Part shown: positions 2,861 through 16,511 of the stretch, piece by piece | Layout of the letters: each line of letters opens with the position of its first letter | How positions within the stretch are numbered: position 1 is the stretch's first letter | NCBI GenBank assembly: GCA_020722165.1 | Contig: DYLI01000003.1 | Coordinates: 1 to 37,361, forward strand | From: Halothiobacillus neapolitanus | GTDB taxonomy: Bacteria > Pseudomonadota > Gammaproteobacteria > Halothiobacillales > Halothiobacillaceae | Reading direction: 5' to 3' | Length of the DNA stretch: 37,361 nt | Program-made: the position numbers and the translations under genes | The notes under the pieces: generated by a model | Told to the model about the DNA's origin: nothing | Databases searched by the model: none | Seen by the model: only the letters and a program-made list of their open reading frames with translations

Positions 2861-4963
2861 CTACAGCCGTCGCACTTCGTCCAATCCTTCCAGGCTTTTT
2901 AGGCGTTCGATCATGGGTTGTAAATTGTCCAGGCTGGGAAGTTCAAGCTTGAGGCGCATGTGTACCTGTTCTGTGCGCTTGTCGCGGCGGCTGTCAATGG
3001 TGTTGACGCGAGCTTTGAACATGGACAGCACATGGCTAATGTCACTTAAGAATTCAGCACGATCTTCACCTAAAATCAGCAATTCAGCGCGCACCGCCAT
3101 GCCTGCAAGGTACGGCCATTCCACGTCGATAAGGCGCTCGGGTTGCGTGCGGCGCAGGTTAGCGAGGTTGTGGCAATCGGTGCGATGCAGGCGCAAGCCT
3201 TGTCCACGGGTAATAAAACCGACAATCGCATCGCCCGGCATGGGGTTGCAGCAACGCGCAGGTTCGGCTTGTAATCCCTCAAGGCTCAGGCTGCGCGGAA
3301 TGGCGGCAGTGGCAAGGCGGCGGGGCAAGGTTTGTGCTTCTTGAATGGTTTCATTGTGGGCGAGGGTGGTGCGAGCGGCATCCAAAAATGCGGCGTGGGA
3401 TAGGTGTCCCTCGCCGAGTGCTTCCCACGCGGCGGTTTCGCTTTTGAATTTAAGTTTTTGCAGCAACTGCTCGCGTTGTTCGCGCGAAAGCCCCAAGCGG
3501 CGCACGGTTTTGTCCCAATGCGTATGACCTTCTTCACGCGCGCTGTCGCGCTCGCGTTGCTTGAACCAAGTGCGAACTTTGGCGCGCGCTCCCTTGGACA
3601 CCAGATAGCCGCTTTTTGCATCCGCCCATTCGCGGTTGGGCGTGCCTTGTGGTGCGCGCATGAGTTCCACGCGGTCGGTGTTTTGTAGCGGTGTGTTGAG
3701 GGGGACGAGGCGGCCATTGACCTTGGCACCTTTGCATTGATGTCCAAGCTCGGTGTGCAGGCTATAGGCCAAATCCAGCGGTGTTGCGCCTTGCGGCAGT
3801 TCGATCACATGCCCTTTCGGGGTGAACACATAAATGCTGCGCACATTCAGCGCCCCACCTTCACCTTCTTTCAAAGCGAGGTGCAGGCGTTCCAGATCAT
3901 CTTCAAAGCTGTCGTTACGCACGTGACCACCCGCCTTGTAACGCCAGTGCGCCGCCACACCAAGTTCGGCTTGATCGTGCATGGCGGCGGTGCGAATTTG
4001 TACCTCCAGTGTTTTGCCTTCGAGCGCGTGCACGGCAGTGTGCAACGATTGATAGCCATTCGGCTTGGGGTGGGCAATGTAGTCATCGTATTCGCTATGA
4101 ATTGGCTGCCACAGGCTATGTACTACGCTCAGGGCTGCGTAGCAATCGCTGATATTCTCAACCTGTACCCGCAGGGCGCGCACATCGAAAAGCTGCGCAA
4201 AATCAAGCTTTTTGCGGCGCATTTTTTCAAAAATGCTGTAAAGATGCTTGGGGCGACCATACACTTTGGCGCTTATGCCTTCGGCGTGCAGCGCATGATC
4301 GAGCTGCTCGCGTACCGTGTGCATATAGGCTTCGCGTTCAACTCGCTTTTCATCCAGCAGGCTGGCAATCCGCTTGTAGGTTTCCGGCTCGACATGGCGA
4401 AACGCTAGGTCTTCAAGCTCCCATTTGAGTTGACCGAGGCCAAGGCGGTGCGCAATCGGCGCGAAAATATCCAGGGTTTCGCGGGCGACGCTTTGCCGTA
4501 TGACCGGGTTGTCCACCAAGGGCAGGGCGCGCAAGCGCTCTAGGCGGTAGGCCAGTTTGATTAAAATCACGCGCACATCGCTGACCATGGCGAGTAACAA
4601 ACGGCGCATGTTTTCGGCCTGTTGCGGACTTTCAAACGCGGCTTGCGTTTCACTAAAGGTGTTCAGCCGATGCAGCTCGGTGACCATGCGCGCGACGTGT
4701 GCGCCGTAAAGTGCTGCAAGCTCGCCTTCGTTGAAGCTTGCGCGCAGGCGCGGGTCGCCCAGCGTGGCGGCCAACAGCGTGTCCGGGTCGGCTTTCATCT
4801 CACACAATACAAGCGCCGCGCGCGCACCGCGTGGACGGGTTGGGTCGCCATCCCACGCCGCGCTGGCTTGAAAGCAGGCTTCGTGCAGCATGGGATTTTC
4901 TCCCGTTTGGGCGAGTAAATCGGCGCATAGGGCGGCGGGGTGCTGGTCGAGTGGGTGCTGCAT
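2861..4963 (-). CDS. relA: RelA-type (p)ppGpp synthetase (RelA/SpoT homologue)
   Basis: 700 aa; synthetase domain (KMRRKKLDFAQLFDVRALRV, HPKPNGYQSLHTAV, EVQIRTAAMHDQAELGVAAHWRYK), TGS (VFTPKGHVIELPQGATPLDLAYSLHTELGHQCKGAKVNG), C-terminal ACT-like domain; HD hydrolase motif degenerate. Confidence 0.93.
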   Translation of the reverse strand: MQHPLDQHPAALCADLLAQTGENPMLHEACFQASAAWDGDPTRPRGARAALVLCEMKADPDTLLAATLGDPRLRASFNEGELAALYGAHVARMVTELHRLNTFSETQAAFESPQQAENMRRLLLAMVSDVRVILIKLAYRLERLRALPLVDNPVIRQSVARETLDIFAPIAHRLGLGQLKWELEDLAFRHVEPETYKRIASLLDEKRVEREAYMHTVREQLDHALHAEGISAKVYGRPKHLYSIFEKMRRKKLDFAQLFDVRALRVQVENISDCYAALSVVHSLWQPIHSEYDDYIAHPKPNGYQSLHTAVHALEGKTLEVQIRTAAMHDQAELGVAAHWRYKAGGHVRNDSFEDDLERLHLALKEGEGGALNVRSIYVFTPKGHVIELPQGATPLDLAYSLHTELGHQCKGAKVNGRLVPLNTPLQNTDRVELMRAPQGTPNREWADAKSGYLVSKGARAKVRTWFKQRERDSAREEGHTHWDKTVRRLGLSREQREQLLQKLKFKSETAAWEALGEGHLSHAAFLDAARTTLAHNETIQEAQTLPRRLATAAIPRSLSLEGLQAEPARCCNPMPGDAIVGFITRGQGLRLHRTDCHNLANLRRTQPERLIDVEWPYLAGMAVRAELLILGEDRAEFLSDISHVLSMFKARVNTIDSRRDKRTEQVHMRLKLELPSLDNLQPMIERLKSLEGLDEVRRL

Positions 4964-5013
4964 GGCTTAAGCATGTCACAATGCCGACTTCTTGAGTACC
5001 CGGTGAAACCTTC

Positions 5014-6030
5014 ATGAACCTGCCTTATGCCTTGGGCGCACCCGATGTTCACGGGCTGCTGCGCAGCCAAGCCGAAGATTTTGTGGTCGATGAGATGTTG
5101 GGCTTTGTGCCCGATGGACGCGGCGAACACGTATGGCTTGCGGTGCGTAAAAAAGGCGAAAATACCGCCTGGGTGGCCAAGCAATTATCGCGTCTTGCGG
5201 GGTGTTCCGAGCGTGATGTGGGTTATTCGGGGCTAAAAGATCGCCACGCCATAACCACGCAATGGTTCAGTCTGCCTGCGCCTCGCCGTGCGGTGAATTG
5301 GGTGGAACTTGGGCAGAAAACTGCAGCGGAAATCATCGTTATCACACGCCACGGGCGCAAATTGCGGCGCGGAACGCATCGTGGCAATCGGTTTTTACTT
5401 AAAGTGCGCAGGCTGGAAGGCGATTTGAGCGGCTTGAATGCGCGCCTTGAGCAGATTGCACGGCTTGGGGTGCCCAACTGGTTCGCCGAACAGCGTTTTG
5501 GGCATGACGGCGGTAATCTCGATGCCGTGCGTGCCTGGTTTGCAGGCGGCAAAGCGCCGCAGCGCGGGCAACAGGGTATGTTGTTGTCCACTGCACGCAG
5601 CGAGTTGTTTAACGCCATTCTGGCGCGGCGCATTAAAGATGGCACTTGGTTGCAACCCCTGCAAGGCGAGCCGCTGATGCTCGATGGTCGGCATAGTTTT
5701 TTTATCGCAGAACCGGGGGATGCGGCACTGGCCGAGCGTTTGACGAGTGGCGATGTGCATACCAGCGGTGCGCTCTGGGGTAAGGAGGGCTCGCAGGCTC
5801 AAGGCGAGTGCGCTGAATTGGAGCTGGCCGTGATTGCGGCGGATATCTTGTTAGCCGAGGGTTTGGTGCGCGAAGGCTTGGAAGCCGCACGTCGGCCTTT
5901 GCGGGTGATTCCCCAAGATATGCACTGGCATGTGGATGAGCGAAATTGCGTGTTGAGTGTGGGTTTTGTTTTGCCTGCGGGAAGTTACGCTACGGCGGTG
6001 ATGCGGGAGATTGTATCCGTCACAGAATGA
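5014..6030 (+). CDS. truD: tRNA pseudouridine(13) synthase TruD
   Basis: 338 aa; N-terminal DFVVDEMLGF, GYSGLKDRHAITTQWFS, NWFAEQRFGHDGGN. Confidence 0.95.
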   Translation: MNLPYALGAPDVHGLLRSQAEDFVVDEMLGFVPDGRGEHVWLAVRKKGENTAWVAKQLSRLAGCSERDVGYSGLKDRHAITTQWFSLPAPRRAVNWVELGQKTAAEIIVITRHGRKLRRGTHRGNRFLLKVRRLEGDLSGLNARLEQIARLGVPNWFAEQRFGHDGGNLDAVRAWFAGGKAPQRGQQGMLLSTARSELFNAILARRIKDGTWLQPLQGEPLMLDGRHSFFIAEPGDAALAERLTSGDVHTSGALWGKEGSQAQGECAELELAVIAADILLAEGLVREGLEAARRPLRVIPQDMHWHVDERNCVLSVGFVLPAGSYATAVMREIVSVTE

Positions 6031-6082: not shown

Positions 6083-7357
6083 TTACTTTGCCAAACGCTC
6101 AATACCAATGGCTTTCATGATGTACTTCTCATAAATCGGCTCGGAGCTACCTGATTTCATCTTGCGGATGAAGTACTTCTCGAAGGCGATTTTAGCTAAG
6201 TGTACCCACTTGCCCTTGGCGAACCAGTTGACATTACGCGGCGGGATTTGTGGCAGGGCGATAAACGCTGCGCCACGGTCGCCCATGTCGGCGAGGCAAA
6301 TGGCTTGCCAGGTGCCTTTGTGGGTGGGCTCTTCGCCTTTAAGTTCTTGTTCGATGTTGTGAATAATCGCCGTGACCATGGATTCGATCATGTAGCCAGT
6401 TTTCGGTGTGCCGACGGGAACAGGGCAGACTTCGACCGGCGGGATGGCAACACATACGCCAGCGGAGTAGATGCTGGGGTATTTTGGGTTGCGTTGCTTG
6501 TCGTCGATCAGCACGAAGCCACCCGGATTGACCATGCCTTCAACGGAGGCCACAACATCCACACCACGGAAGGGCGGCAGCATCATGGAGTGGTTGAAGG
6601 GCAGTTCGTGGGTTTTGATGATGTTGCCCTGCATGTCGAGCTCTTCGACAAACATTTTGCCCGCTTCAACTTTAGTGGTGCGTGCGTTGCAAATCCATTT
6701 GATGTCGTGCATACGCAATTCGGATTCGAGCATACCCTTTGAGTCGCCTACGCCGCCGAGGCCAAGATGCCCGATGTAGGGTTCGGCGGTGACGTAGGTA
6801 ATGGGCACTTGGTCGCGGATTTTTTTCTTGCGCAGAGCGGAATCCAAGATAAAGACATATTCGTAAGCCGGGCCATAGCAGCTTGCACCGGGAAGCGCGC
6901 CGACAATCACGGGGCCTGGATTGTCACAAAGTTTCTGGTAATCGGCGTAGGCCAGTTCGGCATGATCGACGGTACATACGGAATGGGTGTGGCCACCGTG
7001 CGGGCCGGCACCGGGAATCGCTGCGAAGTTGAGCTTCGGGCCAGTGGTGATAATCAGATAGTCGTAGCTGACGCTGTTGCCATTATCGAGGTGCACGGTT
7101 TTGGCTTCAGGGTCGAGCTTGGTCACGCTGGCGTGGATGAAATCGATGCCTTTGCGCTTGAGGTAGGGTTCGATGGGAAAGGTGATTTCATCACGAGTAC
7201 GCCAGCCCACGGCAACCCAGGGGTTGGAGGGGGTGAATTGGAAGTAGTCGGTGGAGTTGATGGCGGTGATTTGATGTGACTTGCCGAGCAATTCGCGTGC
7301 TTCATACGCTGCGGGCATGCCGCCGATACCTGCGCCCATAATAACGATGTGTGCCAT
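6083..7357 (-). CDS. sqr: Sulfide:quinone oxidoreductase, Acidithiobacillus ferrooxidans-like
   Basis: 424 aa; GAGIGGMPAAYE, CTVDHAE, GASCYGPAYEY, PVGTPKTGYMIESM, ADMGDRGAAFIALPQIPPR; close to recalled A. ferrooxidans SQR along its length; three conserved Cys present. Confidence 0.95.
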   Translation of the reverse strand: MAHIVIMGAGIGGMPAAYEARELLGKSHQITAINSTDYFQFTPSNPWVAVGWRTRDEITFPIEPYLKRKGIDFIHASVTKLDPEAKTVHLDNGNSVSYDYLIITTGPKLNFAAIPGAGPHGGHTHSVCTVDHAELAYADYQKLCDNPGPVIVGALPGASCYGPAYEYVFILDSALRKKKIRDQVPITYVTAEPYIGHLGLGGVGDSKGMLESELRMHDIKWICNARTTKVEAGKMFVEELDMQGNIIKTHELPFNHSMMLPPFRGVDVVASVEGMVNPGGFVLIDDKQRNPKYPSIYSAGVCVAIPPVEVCPVPVGTPKTGYMIESMVTAIIHNIEQELKGEEPTHKGTWQAICLADMGDRGAAFIALPQIPPRNVNWFAKGKWVHLAKIAFEKYFIRKMKSGSSEPIYEKYIMKAIGIERLAK

Positions 7358-11587: not shown

Positions 11588-11911
11588 ATGACCCAACGTA
11601 TCCGAAAACGAGTCCGAATGTTAGGTGTTGTATTGGCTGGGGTGATGTCGATGCCTATGGCAATGGCCGCTCCGCAAGCCAGCGGCGAGATGATGGGCAA
11701 CACCTGTGGGGGTTGTCACGGCACGCAGGGTCACATTAAGGGTGAAGCCTTCATGCCCTTGGCGGGCATGAAAGAAGCCACCTTCATCAAAGCCATGACC
11801 GATTTTCGTGGCGGCGCCCGCCCGGCCACCCTGATGGGGCATGTGGCGCGCGGCTACAACGACGAGCAGATCAAGGCCATGGCCGAATATTTTGCCAAGG
11901 TGAAACCATGA
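11588..11911 (+). CDS. fccA: Monoheme c-type cytochrome, flavocytochrome c cytochrome subunit-like
   Basis: 107 aa; signal peptide ending AMA; one CxxCH (CGGCH); GYNDEQIKAMAEYFAKVKP; immediately upstream of fccB; SD GAGGAGG. Confidence 0.85.
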   Translation: MTQRIRKRVRMLGVVLAGVMSMPMAMAAPQASGEMMGNTCGGCHGTQGHIKGEAFMPLAGMKEATFIKAMTDFRGGARPATLMGHVARGYNDEQIKAMAEYFAKVKP

Positions 11912-11922
11912 GGAGCCCCGAC

Positions 11923-13344
11923 ATGCCTACCCCCCACACCCTTCCCGGCACCATGAATCGACGCGACTTTCTCAAGCTTGGTGGTCTTGCGACCGCAGCC
12001 GGAGCCGCGACCGTAAGCAACGTCCACGCGGCAGGCGCTGCCCACGTCGTCATCATCGGCGGCGGTGTCGGCGGTGCCACCACCGCCAAATACCTCAAGT
12101 TGGCTGATCCCAGCGTCAACGTCACCATCATCGAAAAGAACCCGGTGTATATCCGCTCCTATGGCTCCTCCGAAGTTGTGGTTGGGCACATCCCCTACAG
12201 CGCCATCGAAGTCCGCTACGACGACCTTAAGAAAAACTACGGCATCGAATTCATCTTCGACCAAGTCACAGGTTTTGATGCAGAGAAAAAGACCGTCCAA
12301 ACCGCCGCTGGCCAAAGCATCAGCTATGACAAACTCGTGGTCTCCCCCGGCATCCAGCTCAAATACGATGCTATTCCAGGCTACAGCGAAGACATCGCCA
12401 ACACCCAAGTACCAAGTGGATGGATTGCCGGCCCACAAACCAAGTTGCTGGCCGAACAACTCAAAGCCATGCCCCAAGGCGGTACCTTCGTCCTCGTCGC
12501 TCCCCCCAACCCCTACCGCTGCCCGCCCGGGCCGTATGAACGCACCGCTCTGGTTACCGAATGGATGCTCAAGCACAACCCCAAAGGTAAAGTCCTTTTG
12601 CTTGACCCCAAAGACAACTTCGTCACCGACACCACCATGCTGCAAGGCTGGAACCGCCTGTACAACTTTCCTATGCCCGCCGACTACGAAGCCAAATTCG
12701 TTGAAGAACTCAAAAAGAGCAAAGTCCTCGGTGAAAGCGACGGCGTCGCCCAACTGTACGAAAAAGGCATCCTCAGGAAGCCCACCGGCCCCAGCATGAT
12801 TACCTGGATTCGTGCCAAGGAAGGGGGGCGCGTCCTCAAACTGGATGTGACCAACAAAACCATCGAATCCGAAAGCGGCGTGCATAAATACGACGTGCTC
12901 AACATCGTTCCTCCGATGGTCGCTGGCAAAATCGCCCAAGACATGGGGCTGACCGACAAAACCGGCTTCTGCCCCATCGACTATGCCACCTTTGAATCCA
13001 GCATTCACAAAGGTGTCTACGTCCTTGGCGATGCCAGCATCACTCCCATGCCCAAATCCGGTGCCTCCGCCAACACCCAGGCCAAAGTGGTCGCCATGGC
13101 TGTCCTTGCCTCCATCAAGGGACAAGCGCCTGGTGTACCGGCCTGGGGCAACGTCTGCTACGCCCTGGCTGGACACGAATACGGCGTTTTTGTGGTGGAC
13201 GTGTTTGAACTCAAGGACGGCAAGATCACCAACGTCTCGGGCCCGCGTTACCAGATACTCAACGCCAGCGAGGCACAGATTCGCCTCGCGGCGCTGTATA
13301 CCGAAACCTGGGTTCGTACCTTTACCGCTGATTGCTTTGCATAA
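11923..13344 (+). CDS. fccB: Flavocytochrome c sulfide dehydrogenase-like flavoprotein subunit
   Basis: TAT signal (MNRRDFLKLGGLATAAGAA), GGGVGGATTAKYLKLADPSVNVTIIEKNP, PYRCPPGPYERTALV, FCPIDYATFESSIHKGVYVLGDASI-TPMPKSGASAN; ATG at 11923 has GAGGAG at good spacing; ORF opens at 11908. Confidence 0.9.
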   Translation: MPTPHTLPGTMNRRDFLKLGGLATAAGAATVSNVHAAGAAHVVIIGGGVGGATTAKYLKLADPSVNVTIIEKNPVYIRSYGSSEVVVGHIPYSAIEVRYDDLKKNYGIEFIFDQVTGFDAEKKTVQTAAGQSISYDKLVVSPGIQLKYDAIPGYSEDIANTQVPSGWIAGPQTKLLAEQLKAMPQGGTFVLVAPPNPYRCPPGPYERTALVTEWMLKHNPKGKVLLLDPKDNFVTDTTMLQGWNRLYNFPMPADYEAKFVEELKKSKVLGESDGVAQLYEKGILRKPTGPSMITWIRAKEGGRVLKLDVTNKTIESESGVHKYDVLNIVPPMVAGKIAQDMGLTDKTGFCPIDYATFESSIHKGVYVLGDASITPMPKSGASANTQAKVVAMAVLASIKGQAPGVPAWGNVCYALAGHEYGVFVVDVFELKDGKITNVSGPRYQILNASEAQIRLAALYTETWVRTFTADCFA

Positions 13345-13388: not shown

Positions 13389-13529
13389 ATGACTCCAGAA
13401 GAAGAGAAGAAAATTCTCGCAAGTTCACCGATGGGCACTTGGGTCATTCTCGCCGTCTACGGCGTGCTATTTACGTTGGCTTGGTTGGGAATGTATGCCT
13501 TGTTCCTCAGCCATGGCCCAGTGAGTTGA
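13389..13529 (+). CDS. cbaD: ba3-type cytochrome c oxidase subunit IIa
   Basis: 46 aa ORF below the track cutoff: MTPEEEKKILASSPMGTWVILAVYGVLFTLAWLGMYALFLSHGPVS; one TM helix, resembles recalled Thermus ba3 IIa (...FWLGVYAVFFARG); SD AAGGAG upstream; directly before subunit II. Confidence 0.85.
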   Translation: MTPEEEKKILASSPMGTWVILAVYGVLFTLAWLGMYALFLSHGPVS

Positions 13530-13573: not shown

Positions 13574-14068
13574 ATGTCCATGATTCATATTGATCCGCTA
13601 GAAAAGCGTTGGCTTTGGGCCATTGGCGGAATGTTGGCGATTTTCTGGGGTGTGCAAATCTATTACGCAGCGGCTGAGAATATGCACCCGCCAAGTAACG
13701 TCGAAGTGATTGATTCTGCCAAGCTGCACCTGAGCGGTGAGTTTGCCGAGGATAACCTGGGCGTGAAGAAGGAAGCCGATGGTTCGTACACCGTCACCAT
13801 GGTGGCCGCGCGTTATGGCTTCTATCCACAAGAGATTGAAGTTCCGGCAAAGACCCCTGTGAAATTGCGTATTGCTTCGTTCGATGTGTTGCACGGTGTG
13901 CATGTGCCATTCAGCAACATGAACACCATGGTGGTTCCGGGCTATGTGTCTGAAGTTCACACCGAGTTTCAAACACCGGGAAGCTTCCCGATGATTTGTA
14001 ATGAGTATTGTGGTTTGGGTCACGATTACATGTATTCCAAGCTGCATGTAACCGCTGGCAAGTCCTAA
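13574..14068 (+). CDS. cbaB: ba3-type cytochrome c oxidase subunit II (CuA)
   Basis: 164 aa; one N-terminal TM; CuA ligands FDVLHGVHV...ICNEYCGLGHDYMYSKL; no fused heme domain. Confidence 0.95.
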   Translation: MSMIHIDPLEKRWLWAIGGMLAIFWGVQIYYAAAENMHPPSNVEVIDSAKLHLSGEFAEDNLGVKKEADGSYTVTMVAARYGFYPQEIEVPAKTPVKLRIASFDVLHGVHVPFSNMNTMVVPGYVSEVHTEFQTPGSFPMICNEYCGLGHDYMYSKLHVTAGKS

Positions 14069-14087: not shown

Positions 14088-15773
14088 ATGAGCATTACAG
14101 CTGAACATGCTGCAAGTCTTGCCAGCAAGCCTTCCCGCCCGGCGGTGACGGCGGTGCAGGCTTACGGTAACAAATTAGGCCTGTGGAACATGTGGGTCGC
14201 CTTCGCAGCGCTCGCCGTAGGGTTGCCCATGGGCTTATTCCAGGCTGCGGAACGTAGCGGCTTTTTCCCGGGCATTGAAAATACGGCGGTGTATTTTGCC
14301 TCCACATCAACTCATGGCGTGTTGATGGCCTTCGTGTTGACTACGTTTTTCGCGATGGGTTGGGGATACCACACCATGGCGCACAGCGTGAACAAGAAGC
14401 CATTCTTCGGTTGGACGAGCTTTTGGGTGGCGCTCATTGGTACAGTCATGGCGGCCATCCCGCTCCTGACCGGGTATGCCTCGGTGCTCTATACCTTTTA
14501 TCCACCTGAAATGGCGCACCCATCCTTCTATTTGGGCGCAACCTTGCTGGTGGTTGGTTCGTGGTTCTGGGTGGCCGATATGATTATCGCCTTTGTCCAG
14601 TGGAAGAAGGAAAACCCCGGCAAGCCTATTCCGGCGGTGATGTTCATGTTCACCATGACAGCTCTGCTCTGGGGCTGGACGAGCTTGGGTGTGGGTTCAG
14701 AAAGTTTATTCCAGCTGCTGCCCGTGGCATTCGGTCTTACGCCAACCATTGACGTGGGCTTGGCGCGTACCCTGTTCTCCTGGACGTTGCACTCCATTGT
14801 GTACTTCTGGTTGATGCCCGCTTACATCGCCATGTATGTGATTTTGCCAAGAGAAGCCGGTGGCAAACTGTTCTCGGATGAGTTTGCACGTATTGCCTTC
14901 GTCTTACTGTTTATCTTCTCCGTGCCGATTGGTTTCCACCATCTGTACCTTGACCCACAACAGGCCGCAGGCTGGAAATTGTTGCACATGTTCGGTACGT
15001 TCATGGTGGCCGTTCCGACCTTCCTGACTGGCTTTACCGTGCTGGCTTCAATGGAAATTGCAGGTCGCCTGCGTGGTGGTAAAGGTTTGTTTGGCTGGAT
15101 TGGCGCTTTGGATTGGAACAACCCAATCGTGCTTGCCGGTGGCTTGTCATTGTTGATGCTCACTGTTGGCGGCTGGGGTGGCGTGTTGAACGCGTCTTAT
15201 ACTTGGGACGTCATGGTGCACAACACGCAGTGGATTACCGGTCACTTCCACCTGATTTTTGGTGGTACCACGGTCATCATGTACTTGGCGGCTGCCTATT
15301 GGTTGTGGCCGAAGATTACGGGTAATGCACTGTATTCGCGCGCCTTGGCCGTTTGGCAGATGTGGTTGTATTTCATCGGCATGGTGGTTTTGACCGGACC
15401 GTGGCATGTGCTTGGCCTTATTGGTCAGCCTCGCCGTGTGTCGTTTACGGATCAGTACGCAGCCTTTCCGGAATACGCGCAAATGTGGGGCATCTATGAA
15501 GCCTTAATGATTGTTGGGGCGTTGTTGGTGGTTGTTTCGGGTTTTATGTTTATCTACAACCTTTTCATGACCCACTTCAACAAAGTTCCCGCTGCCGATA
15601 CCAAGGTGGAGTACGCCGTGGCCATCCATGAACCGATGCGCTTGCCTAACGTGTTGAATAGCCTTGCCTTTTGGAATTGGGCGATGGTGGCCTACATGCT
15701 TCTAAGCTACGGTTATCCGATTCTGCAGTTCTTCTTTATGGCAGGGGACAAGACTATCCCTTGGGGAGTTTGA
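14088..15773 (+). CDS. cbaA: ba3-type cytochrome c oxidase subunit I
   Basis: 561 aa; THGVLMAFVLTTFFAMGWG, TLHSIVYFWLMPAYIAMYVILP (His-Tyr pair), GFHHLYLDP, GHFHLIFGGTTV. Confidence 0.96.
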   Translation: MSITAEHAASLASKPSRPAVTAVQAYGNKLGLWNMWVAFAALAVGLPMGLFQAAERSGFFPGIENTAVYFASTSTHGVLMAFVLTTFFAMGWGYHTMAHSVNKKPFFGWTSFWVALIGTVMAAIPLLTGYASVLYTFYPPEMAHPSFYLGATLLVVGSWFWVADMIIAFVQWKKENPGKPIPAVMFMFTMTALLWGWTSLGVGSESLFQLLPVAFGLTPTIDVGLARTLFSWTLHSIVYFWLMPAYIAMYVILPREAGGKLFSDEFARIAFVLLFIFSVPIGFHHLYLDPQQAAGWKLLHMFGTFMVAVPTFLTGFTVLASMEIAGRLRGGKGLFGWIGALDWNNPIVLAGGLSLLMLTVGGWGGVLNASYTWDVMVHNTQWITGHFHLIFGGTTVIMYLAAAYWLWPKITGNALYSRALAVWQMWLYFIGMVVLTGPWHVLGLIGQPRRVSFTDQYAAFPEYAQMWGIYEALMIVGALLVVVSGFMFIYNLFMTHFNKVPAADTKVEYAVAIHEPMRLPNVLNSLAFWNWAMVAYMLLSYGYPILQFFFMAGDKTIPWGV

Positions 15774-15776
15774 TTC

Positions 15777-16511
15777 ATGAGTAACATGTATATTAAAACC
15801 GTTACGGGCATGAGCGTTGTTGTTGCTGCGCTGATGATGTCGCCAGTGTTTGCAGCTGAGCACGGGGTGACAACTGCACCCAAAGGATCATCGTCCAATG
15901 TGGCGTGGACAGCCGAAATGGTGGAGTTTGTCGCCAAAGGTGACAAGAACCGTGGTGGGCAGCTTAATCAAGATTTGTTTTGTGCCTCGTGTCATGGTCA
16001 AGTGGGCATCGCGCCATCGGCAAACTGGCCGTCTTTGGCGGGTCAACGTGCCGAGTACACCTTCAAAATGTTGAAGGATTACAAGGAAGGCAAGCGCAAA
16101 GGCAGCCATTCCGCCGAAATCATGACTGCTACAAGTCAGTTGGTTTCAGATCAGGATATGGCTGATTTGGCGCAGTTTTATGCCAGCTTCACCTTGCCGC
16201 CGTTGCCCGTAGGTGTCAGCTTTGATGCAGCTGTTGGCGCACAGTCCAAGTCCATCGTTACGCGTGGTGATGGCAAGCGCCTCGTTGCGCCCTGCCAGTC
16301 TTGCCATGTTGCCAATGGCGAAGGTCAGGAAACGGACACCCCGGCCTTGGCGGGTCAAACCCCTGATTATTTCATCAAAACCATGCAGGAATATAAAACC
16401 GGTGCACGCAGTAGTGATGTTTACTCGCGTATGCGCTTGATCGCCAAGGTTTTGACGGATGAGGAAATTGTGCAGATGGCTCATTACTATGCGGGTCTGA
16501 CTGCGAAATAA
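15777..16511 (+). CDS. Diheme c-type cytochrome (cytochrome c4-like)
   Basis: 244 aa; signal peptide; two CxxCH (CASCH, CQSCH) in duplicated domains; WPSLAGQRAEYTFKMLKDYKEGKR / PALAGQTPDYFIKTMQEYKTGAR. Confidence 0.92.
   Translation: MSNMYIKTVTGMSVVVAALMMSPVFAAEHGVTTAPKGSSSNVAWTAEMVEFVAKGDKNRGGQLNQDLFCASCHGQVGIAPSANWPSLAGQRAEYTFKMLKDYKEGKRKGSHSAEIMTATSQLVSDQDMADLAQFYASFTLPPLPVGVSFDAAVGAQSKSIVTRGDGKRLVAPCQSCHVANGEGQETDTPALAGQTPDYFIKTMQEYKTGARSSDVYSRMRLIAKVLTDEEIVQMAHYYAGLTAK

Follow-up and report, generated by a model that had tools for sequence, protein, structure and literature searches.

In the 37,361-nucleotide stretch of DNA from Halothiobacillus neapolitanus analyzed here (hereafter the window), the homologue of FccB, the flavoprotein subunit of flavocytochrome c, carries a serine at the position of the cysteine that binds FAD in the Allochromatium vinosum protein, and it belongs to a single clade whose 22 members all lack that cysteine. 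Our overall reading, to which we assign a probability of roughly 0.6, is that the proteins of this clade would bind FAD non-covalently, would keep a sulfide-type chemistry, and would pass their electrons via cytochromes c to a bd-like or a ba3 oxidase. A covalently bound FAD counts as a hallmark of flavocytochrome c, and Cys42 (A. vinosum numbering) is used in its annotation.

An FccB Homologue without the FAD-Binding Cysteine

Domain and structure matches identified the FccB homologue as a protein of 478 aa encoded on the forward strand at positions 11908..13344, with a likely start at the Met at 11953 and a Tat signal (MNRRDFLK). The phmmer comparison with 1FCD gave an E-value of 1.1e-98, with 3VRD and 5N1T as the next matches, and two FCSD domains scored above their cut-offs, PF21706 in the central part of the protein (123.8 bits) and PF09242 in the C-terminal part (52.5 bits). 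The AlphaFold model (pLDDT 94.8, pTM 0.92) superposed on 1FCD, 3VRD, and 5N1T with TM-scores of 0.94-0.97 relative to the target. In common with the FccAB complexes of A. vinosum (1FCD), T. tepidum (3VRD), and T. paradoxus (5N1T), the window protein has the fold, the FAD-binding motif, the Cys161-Cys337 pair, Glu167, a Trp near the C-terminus, export by the Tat route, and an FccA-like heme partner. An insertion of about 42 residues (residues 254-295, positions 12667..12792, forward strand) follows the motif GWNRLY in the alignment and appears as two helices in the model.

The preliminary description of this DNA had claimed a serine in place of the FAD-binding cysteine, and the alignment upholds this: Ser84 (codon TCC, 12157..12159) falls on A. 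vinosum Cys42, and the phmmer alignment to 1FCD runs ungapped through YYTCYLSNEV. The region around the site in the window protein (ORF 11908-13344, forward strand) reads VTIIEKNPVYIRSYGSSEVVVG. In FccB, Cys42 binds FAD, Cys161 and Cys337 form a disulfide, and a Glu at position 167 lies in the active site (PMC3504083). Only four cysteines occur in the window protein, namely the two redox cysteines, Cys355, and Cys476. Since Ser84 stands at the Cys42 position and none of the 22 clade members has a cysteine there, we filed the protein as a divergent homologue; judged by its sequence, for want of Cys42, it is not a canonical FccB.

The protein resembles sulfide:quinone oxidoreductases (SQRs) in belonging to the same superfamily, in its sulfide-oxidizing cysteine pair, and in that no cysteine at the Cys42 position holds the FAD, but it differs from them in carrying the FCSD C-terminal domain and in its heme partner. 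Assignment to the SQRs is opposed by the Tat signal and the heme partner, and in sequence searches the protein matched FccB at 1e-98 vs. 1e-17 at best for SQR.

The Cysteine-Less Proteins Form One Clade

The homologue set comprised 113 distinct rows taken from the family of the window, its class, and a named genome collection. Within the clade, the Cys42 column holds Pro (17 rows), Arg (3), His (1), or Ser (1, the window), whereas outside it 90 of the 91 rows hold Cys and one holds Gly. In a tree computed without the motif columns the 22 cysteine-less rows grouped together with bootstrap/SH-aLRT values of 100/99, so that a single loss of the cysteine suffices there, and the 8-alpha-S-cysteinyl FAD anchor would have been lost once. 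The suggestion that the serine itself might define a clade stood only in part: the cysteine-less clade is real (22/22 rows without Cys vs. 1/91 outside it), but Ser is a singleton, with Pro the usual residue. As a clade marker Ser was consequently rejected, both the nearest relative (G022) and a genome of the same genus (G024) having Pro like the majority of the clade.

Could Ser84 stem from faulty sequencing or assembly, or from random drift that has no meaning of its own? A single base separates the serine codon from one for Pro, the usual residue, the genome is a draft of 273 contigs, and in the same genus contig ends interrupt the FccB copies at this very part of the gene; the window ORF is nevertheless intact, and the cysteine is lost throughout the clade whatever residue the window has, so that the central observation would stand even if the serine were wrong. 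We regard either origin of the serine as very improbable.

Further traits separate the clade from the known FccAB complexes. Behind the WNRLY motif its members have 22-43 inserted residues, as against 2-13 in nearly all other proteins, they have Ser or Thr three residues past the site where the others have Asn, and their genes are linked to oxidase genes. Five cysteine-bearing sisters (L035, L037, L048, L165, and L166) join the clade with support of 100/100; one of them, L035, has the site YVRCYGSN and an insertion of 21 residues.

Outside the clade, the FccB of a member of the Magnetococcales (L069, 10001-11269) is the row with Gly at the Cys42 position, and this loss apparently occurred independently of that in the clade. 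Viral contigs yielded no relatives; plasmid matches reached only 33-37% identity and were kept out of the analysis.

Binding of FAD

The anchor cysteine is gone, its loss marks a clade, and no conserved cysteine has taken its place; taken together, these observations make non-covalent FAD the likeliest state, and we consider it probable for FccB proteins of this clade. The cofactor would then be held by the Rossmann fold, as in the SQRs, which oxidize sulfide and whose FAD is not attached via this cysteine.

A covalent link through another residue is unlikely, the candidates being Tyr85 (codon 12160..12162, forward strand) as an 8-alpha-O-tyrosyl bond, Cys476 near the C-terminus (codon 13333..13335, forward strand), and, in one member, a His at the site itself. 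Tyr85 directly follows the lost anchor in the alignment and is invariant in the clade (22/22), but a Tyr in this place is also found in 14 of the 91 rows elsewhere, and these canonical proteins include that of A. vinosum, in which the cysteine serves as the anchor. Cys at position 476 was found in 11 of the 22 Cys42-less rows and in 0/93 others, a curious correlation, yet in the other half of the clade this alignment column is occupied by Ile, Ser, Thr, or Val. His occupies the Cys42 position in L047, a clade member from an uncultured Duodenibacillus (3674-5023) that reads SFVRHYGSSEHL; judging from this residue, a histidyl-FAD link is conceivable in that protein. Tyrosyl and histidyl flavin links do occur in other flavoenzymes, but the tyrosyl ones are extremely rare (PMC4148704). 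As for the consequences of non-covalent binding, the flavin potential falls when the covalent link is lost in other flavoenzymes (PMC4148704), and by analogy a lower flavin potential would follow for the cysteine-less FccB.

Redox-Active Residues and Substrate

The claim that the pair of redox-active cysteines is retained proved right for both residues but misplaced the second. Cys205 (12520..12522, forward strand) aligns with A. vinosum Cys161, and the true second redox-active cysteine is Cys417, which lies in NVCYALAG (13156..13158, forward strand) and aligns with Cys337. The cysteine codon at 12970..12972 that had been taken for it encodes Cys355 (GFCPID) and aligns with Cys274; it was rejected as the second redox cysteine because 1FCD numbering puts GWCPV at about 274 and identifies NTCYS as Cys337, in agreement with PMC3504083. 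Among the 91 FccB rows outside the clade, 11 have Ala or Val at the Cys274 position. Glu211 (12538..12540, forward strand) is aligned with the active-site Glu167 (role from PMC3504083) and is retained as well, and the equivalents of Cys161, Cys337, and Glu167 are invariant throughout the cysteine-less clade.

Because the Cys161-Cys337 pair and Glu167 remain, oxidation of sulfide type at FAD is probably kept, and would proceed as a two-electron reaction; a sulfide-type substrate is therefore, on the evidence of these residues, the probable one for the clade. The change of substrate that the preliminary description had entertained is not supported, given the invariance of these three residues and the fact that SQRs oxidize sulfide without this FAD anchor. 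Polysulfide, persulfide, a thiol, or another reduced sulfur compound could be used instead if the insertion and the lost anchor together reshape the active site; the insertion, present in the whole clade, could by its size alter the substrate site, and plain sulfide oxidation is already covered in the window genome by an SQR and a cysteine-bearing FccB. Against this, the FccA-like partner is kept beside the clade FccB in addition to the invariant residues, and multiple sulfide oxidases are usual in many sulfur oxidizers (for Guyparkeria, PMC9032823). A different substrate is thus rather unlikely, and we retain sulfide-type chemistry as the preferred reading.

The SQR gene of the window (6083-7357, reverse strand) lies 4 kb from the FccA-FccB pair, and its product closely resembles the enzyme of A. 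ferrooxidans (4.7e-176). The second FccB of the same genome (L001, G000:C33, 1495-3144, reverse strand) keeps the FAD-binding cysteine (YYTCPFSN), adjoins a mono-heme cytochrome, and has Ala at the Cys274 position (GWAPVN), as is likewise seen in G023 and G025. It was considered as a protein that had lost a redox cysteine, a notion that was discarded, as only Cys274 is missing.

Two further replacements are unique to the window protein within the clade alignment, Ala386 (13063..13065, forward strand) in place of Tyr306 and Val416 (13153..13155, forward strand) in place of Thr336. Both positions have been proposed to lie on the electron path from FAD to heme (PMC12010331), and the electron path of the window protein may thus differ from that in the rest of the clade.

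Gene Neighborhood in the Window

Immediately upstream of the FccB gene, and overlapping it by 4 bases, is a gene for an FccA-like mono-heme cytochrome c of 107 aa (11588..11911, forward strand), whose best PDB match is heme domain 1 of FccA (3vrd_A, 2e-17; 1fcd_C, 1e-15) and which is the predicted heme c partner subunit of the window FccB. Together the two would make up a flavocytochrome c of sulfide dehydrogenase type, located in the periplasm. Downstream on the same strand follow a small hydrophobic ORF of 46 aa that is conserved at related ba3 loci (13389..13529), the genes for subunit II (13574..14068) and subunit I (14088..15773) of a ba3-type cytochrome oxidase, the closest solved structure to the latter being Thermus ba3 (about 1e-112), and a gene for a cytochrome c with two heme domains (15777..16511), a relative of which ends the FccB cassette of related genomes. 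Beyond the oxidase and diheme cytochrome genes lie those for a copper ATPase, SCO1, and PCu(A)C, and upstream in the window are those for heme O synthase and CtaA.

A Membrane Cassette Accompanies FccB in Relatives

In most relatives, the gene for FccB stands in a cassette with those for a CydA-like membrane protein with a heme-c end (F2), a second membrane protein (F3), an FccA-like cytochrome, and a diheme cytochrome. The F2-F3 membrane genes were found at 16 of 21 distinct cysteine-less loci, a lower bound as locus lengths differ, vs. 0 of 63 other FccB loci (8 kb or longer; L049 and L131, being a single record, were counted once). The cassette is common to the clade and its cysteine-bearing sisters and is therefore older than the loss of the cysteine; the two traits did not arise in the same event.

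F2 proteins have about 455-490 aa and a C-terminal CSNCH heme-c motif. Five of ten F2 members matched the CydA family PF01654 (best E-value 3.8e-5), and the first thirteen PDB fold matches of an F2 model of low confidence (pLDDT 56) were all cytochrome bd subunits; the family matches and the model together give a hint that F2 is cytochrome bd-like. F3 (about 410 aa) had no significant match in Pfam, NCBIfam, or the PDB, and a profile comparison that paired F3 with F2 at 81% probability offers a hint only. The putative CydA-like membrane domain is what F2 would share with the cytochrome bd superfamily (CydAB, OR-N/OR-C), within which cytochrome c-linked OR-N/OR-C families have been named (PMC10839748), and its heme-c domain suggests cytochrome c as donor. 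The pair is unlike canonical CydAB in that F3 lacks a Pfam match and F2-F3 are tied to flavocytochrome c by gene order.

Variants of this arrangement were also encountered. The three Arg-type proteins (L132, L134, and L136, from genomes G019, G014, and G016) end in a C-terminal tail YKPYWA and have no F2-F3 genes nearby; all three genomes also encode the Pro type, and in G019 and G016 the neighbors of the Arg-type gene encode proteins of 710-717, 308, and 1312 aa. A second type of F2-F3, about 53% (F2) and about 37% (F3) identical, occurs in related genomes at L139, L140, L141, L142, L143, L144, and L152 with no adjoining clade FccB, in part beside a small mono-heme cytochrome.

F2 and F3 are absent from the window, and a search for F2 in its genome, a draft assembly, gave no match. 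In G023, which belongs to the same genus, ends of an FccB gene turned up at two places, a ba3 locus syntenic with the window and an F2-F3 cassette, and the assembly breaks fall at the same points within the gene; this suggests that G023 has two near-identical FccB copies that serve both outlets. A second such copy in the genome of the window may have been lost from the assembly or may never have been there.

Electron Transfer and Significance

From FAD, electrons would pass to the FccA-like heme, then to soluble cytochromes c, and finally to a membrane oxidase, the terminal step being taken in most relatives by the CydA-like heme-c protein with its partner and in the genus of the window by the adjacent ba3 oxidase. 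Gene order leads us to favor, with some reserve, this route through cytochromes c, with a bd-like or ba3 oxidase at its end. The bd-like membrane complex may be a dedicated electron outlet of the clade FccB. More tentatively, and as a possibility we hold less probable than its opposite, there could be a dedicated chain from sulfide to O2 that bypasses the quinone pool, running from a non-covalent FAD through the FccA heme and the diheme cytochrome c to the heme-c CydA-like subunit, with the same flavoprotein also serving ba3 in the genus of the window.

The existence of a cysteine-less clade beside cysteine-bearing sisters in the same cassette amounts to a natural experiment on the role of the covalent bond, one that bears on flavin potential and on sulfide oxidation. 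In addition, F2-F3 suggest an uncharacterized terminal oxidase of sulfur oxidizers, one that would be open to study in culturable Halothiobacillaceae.
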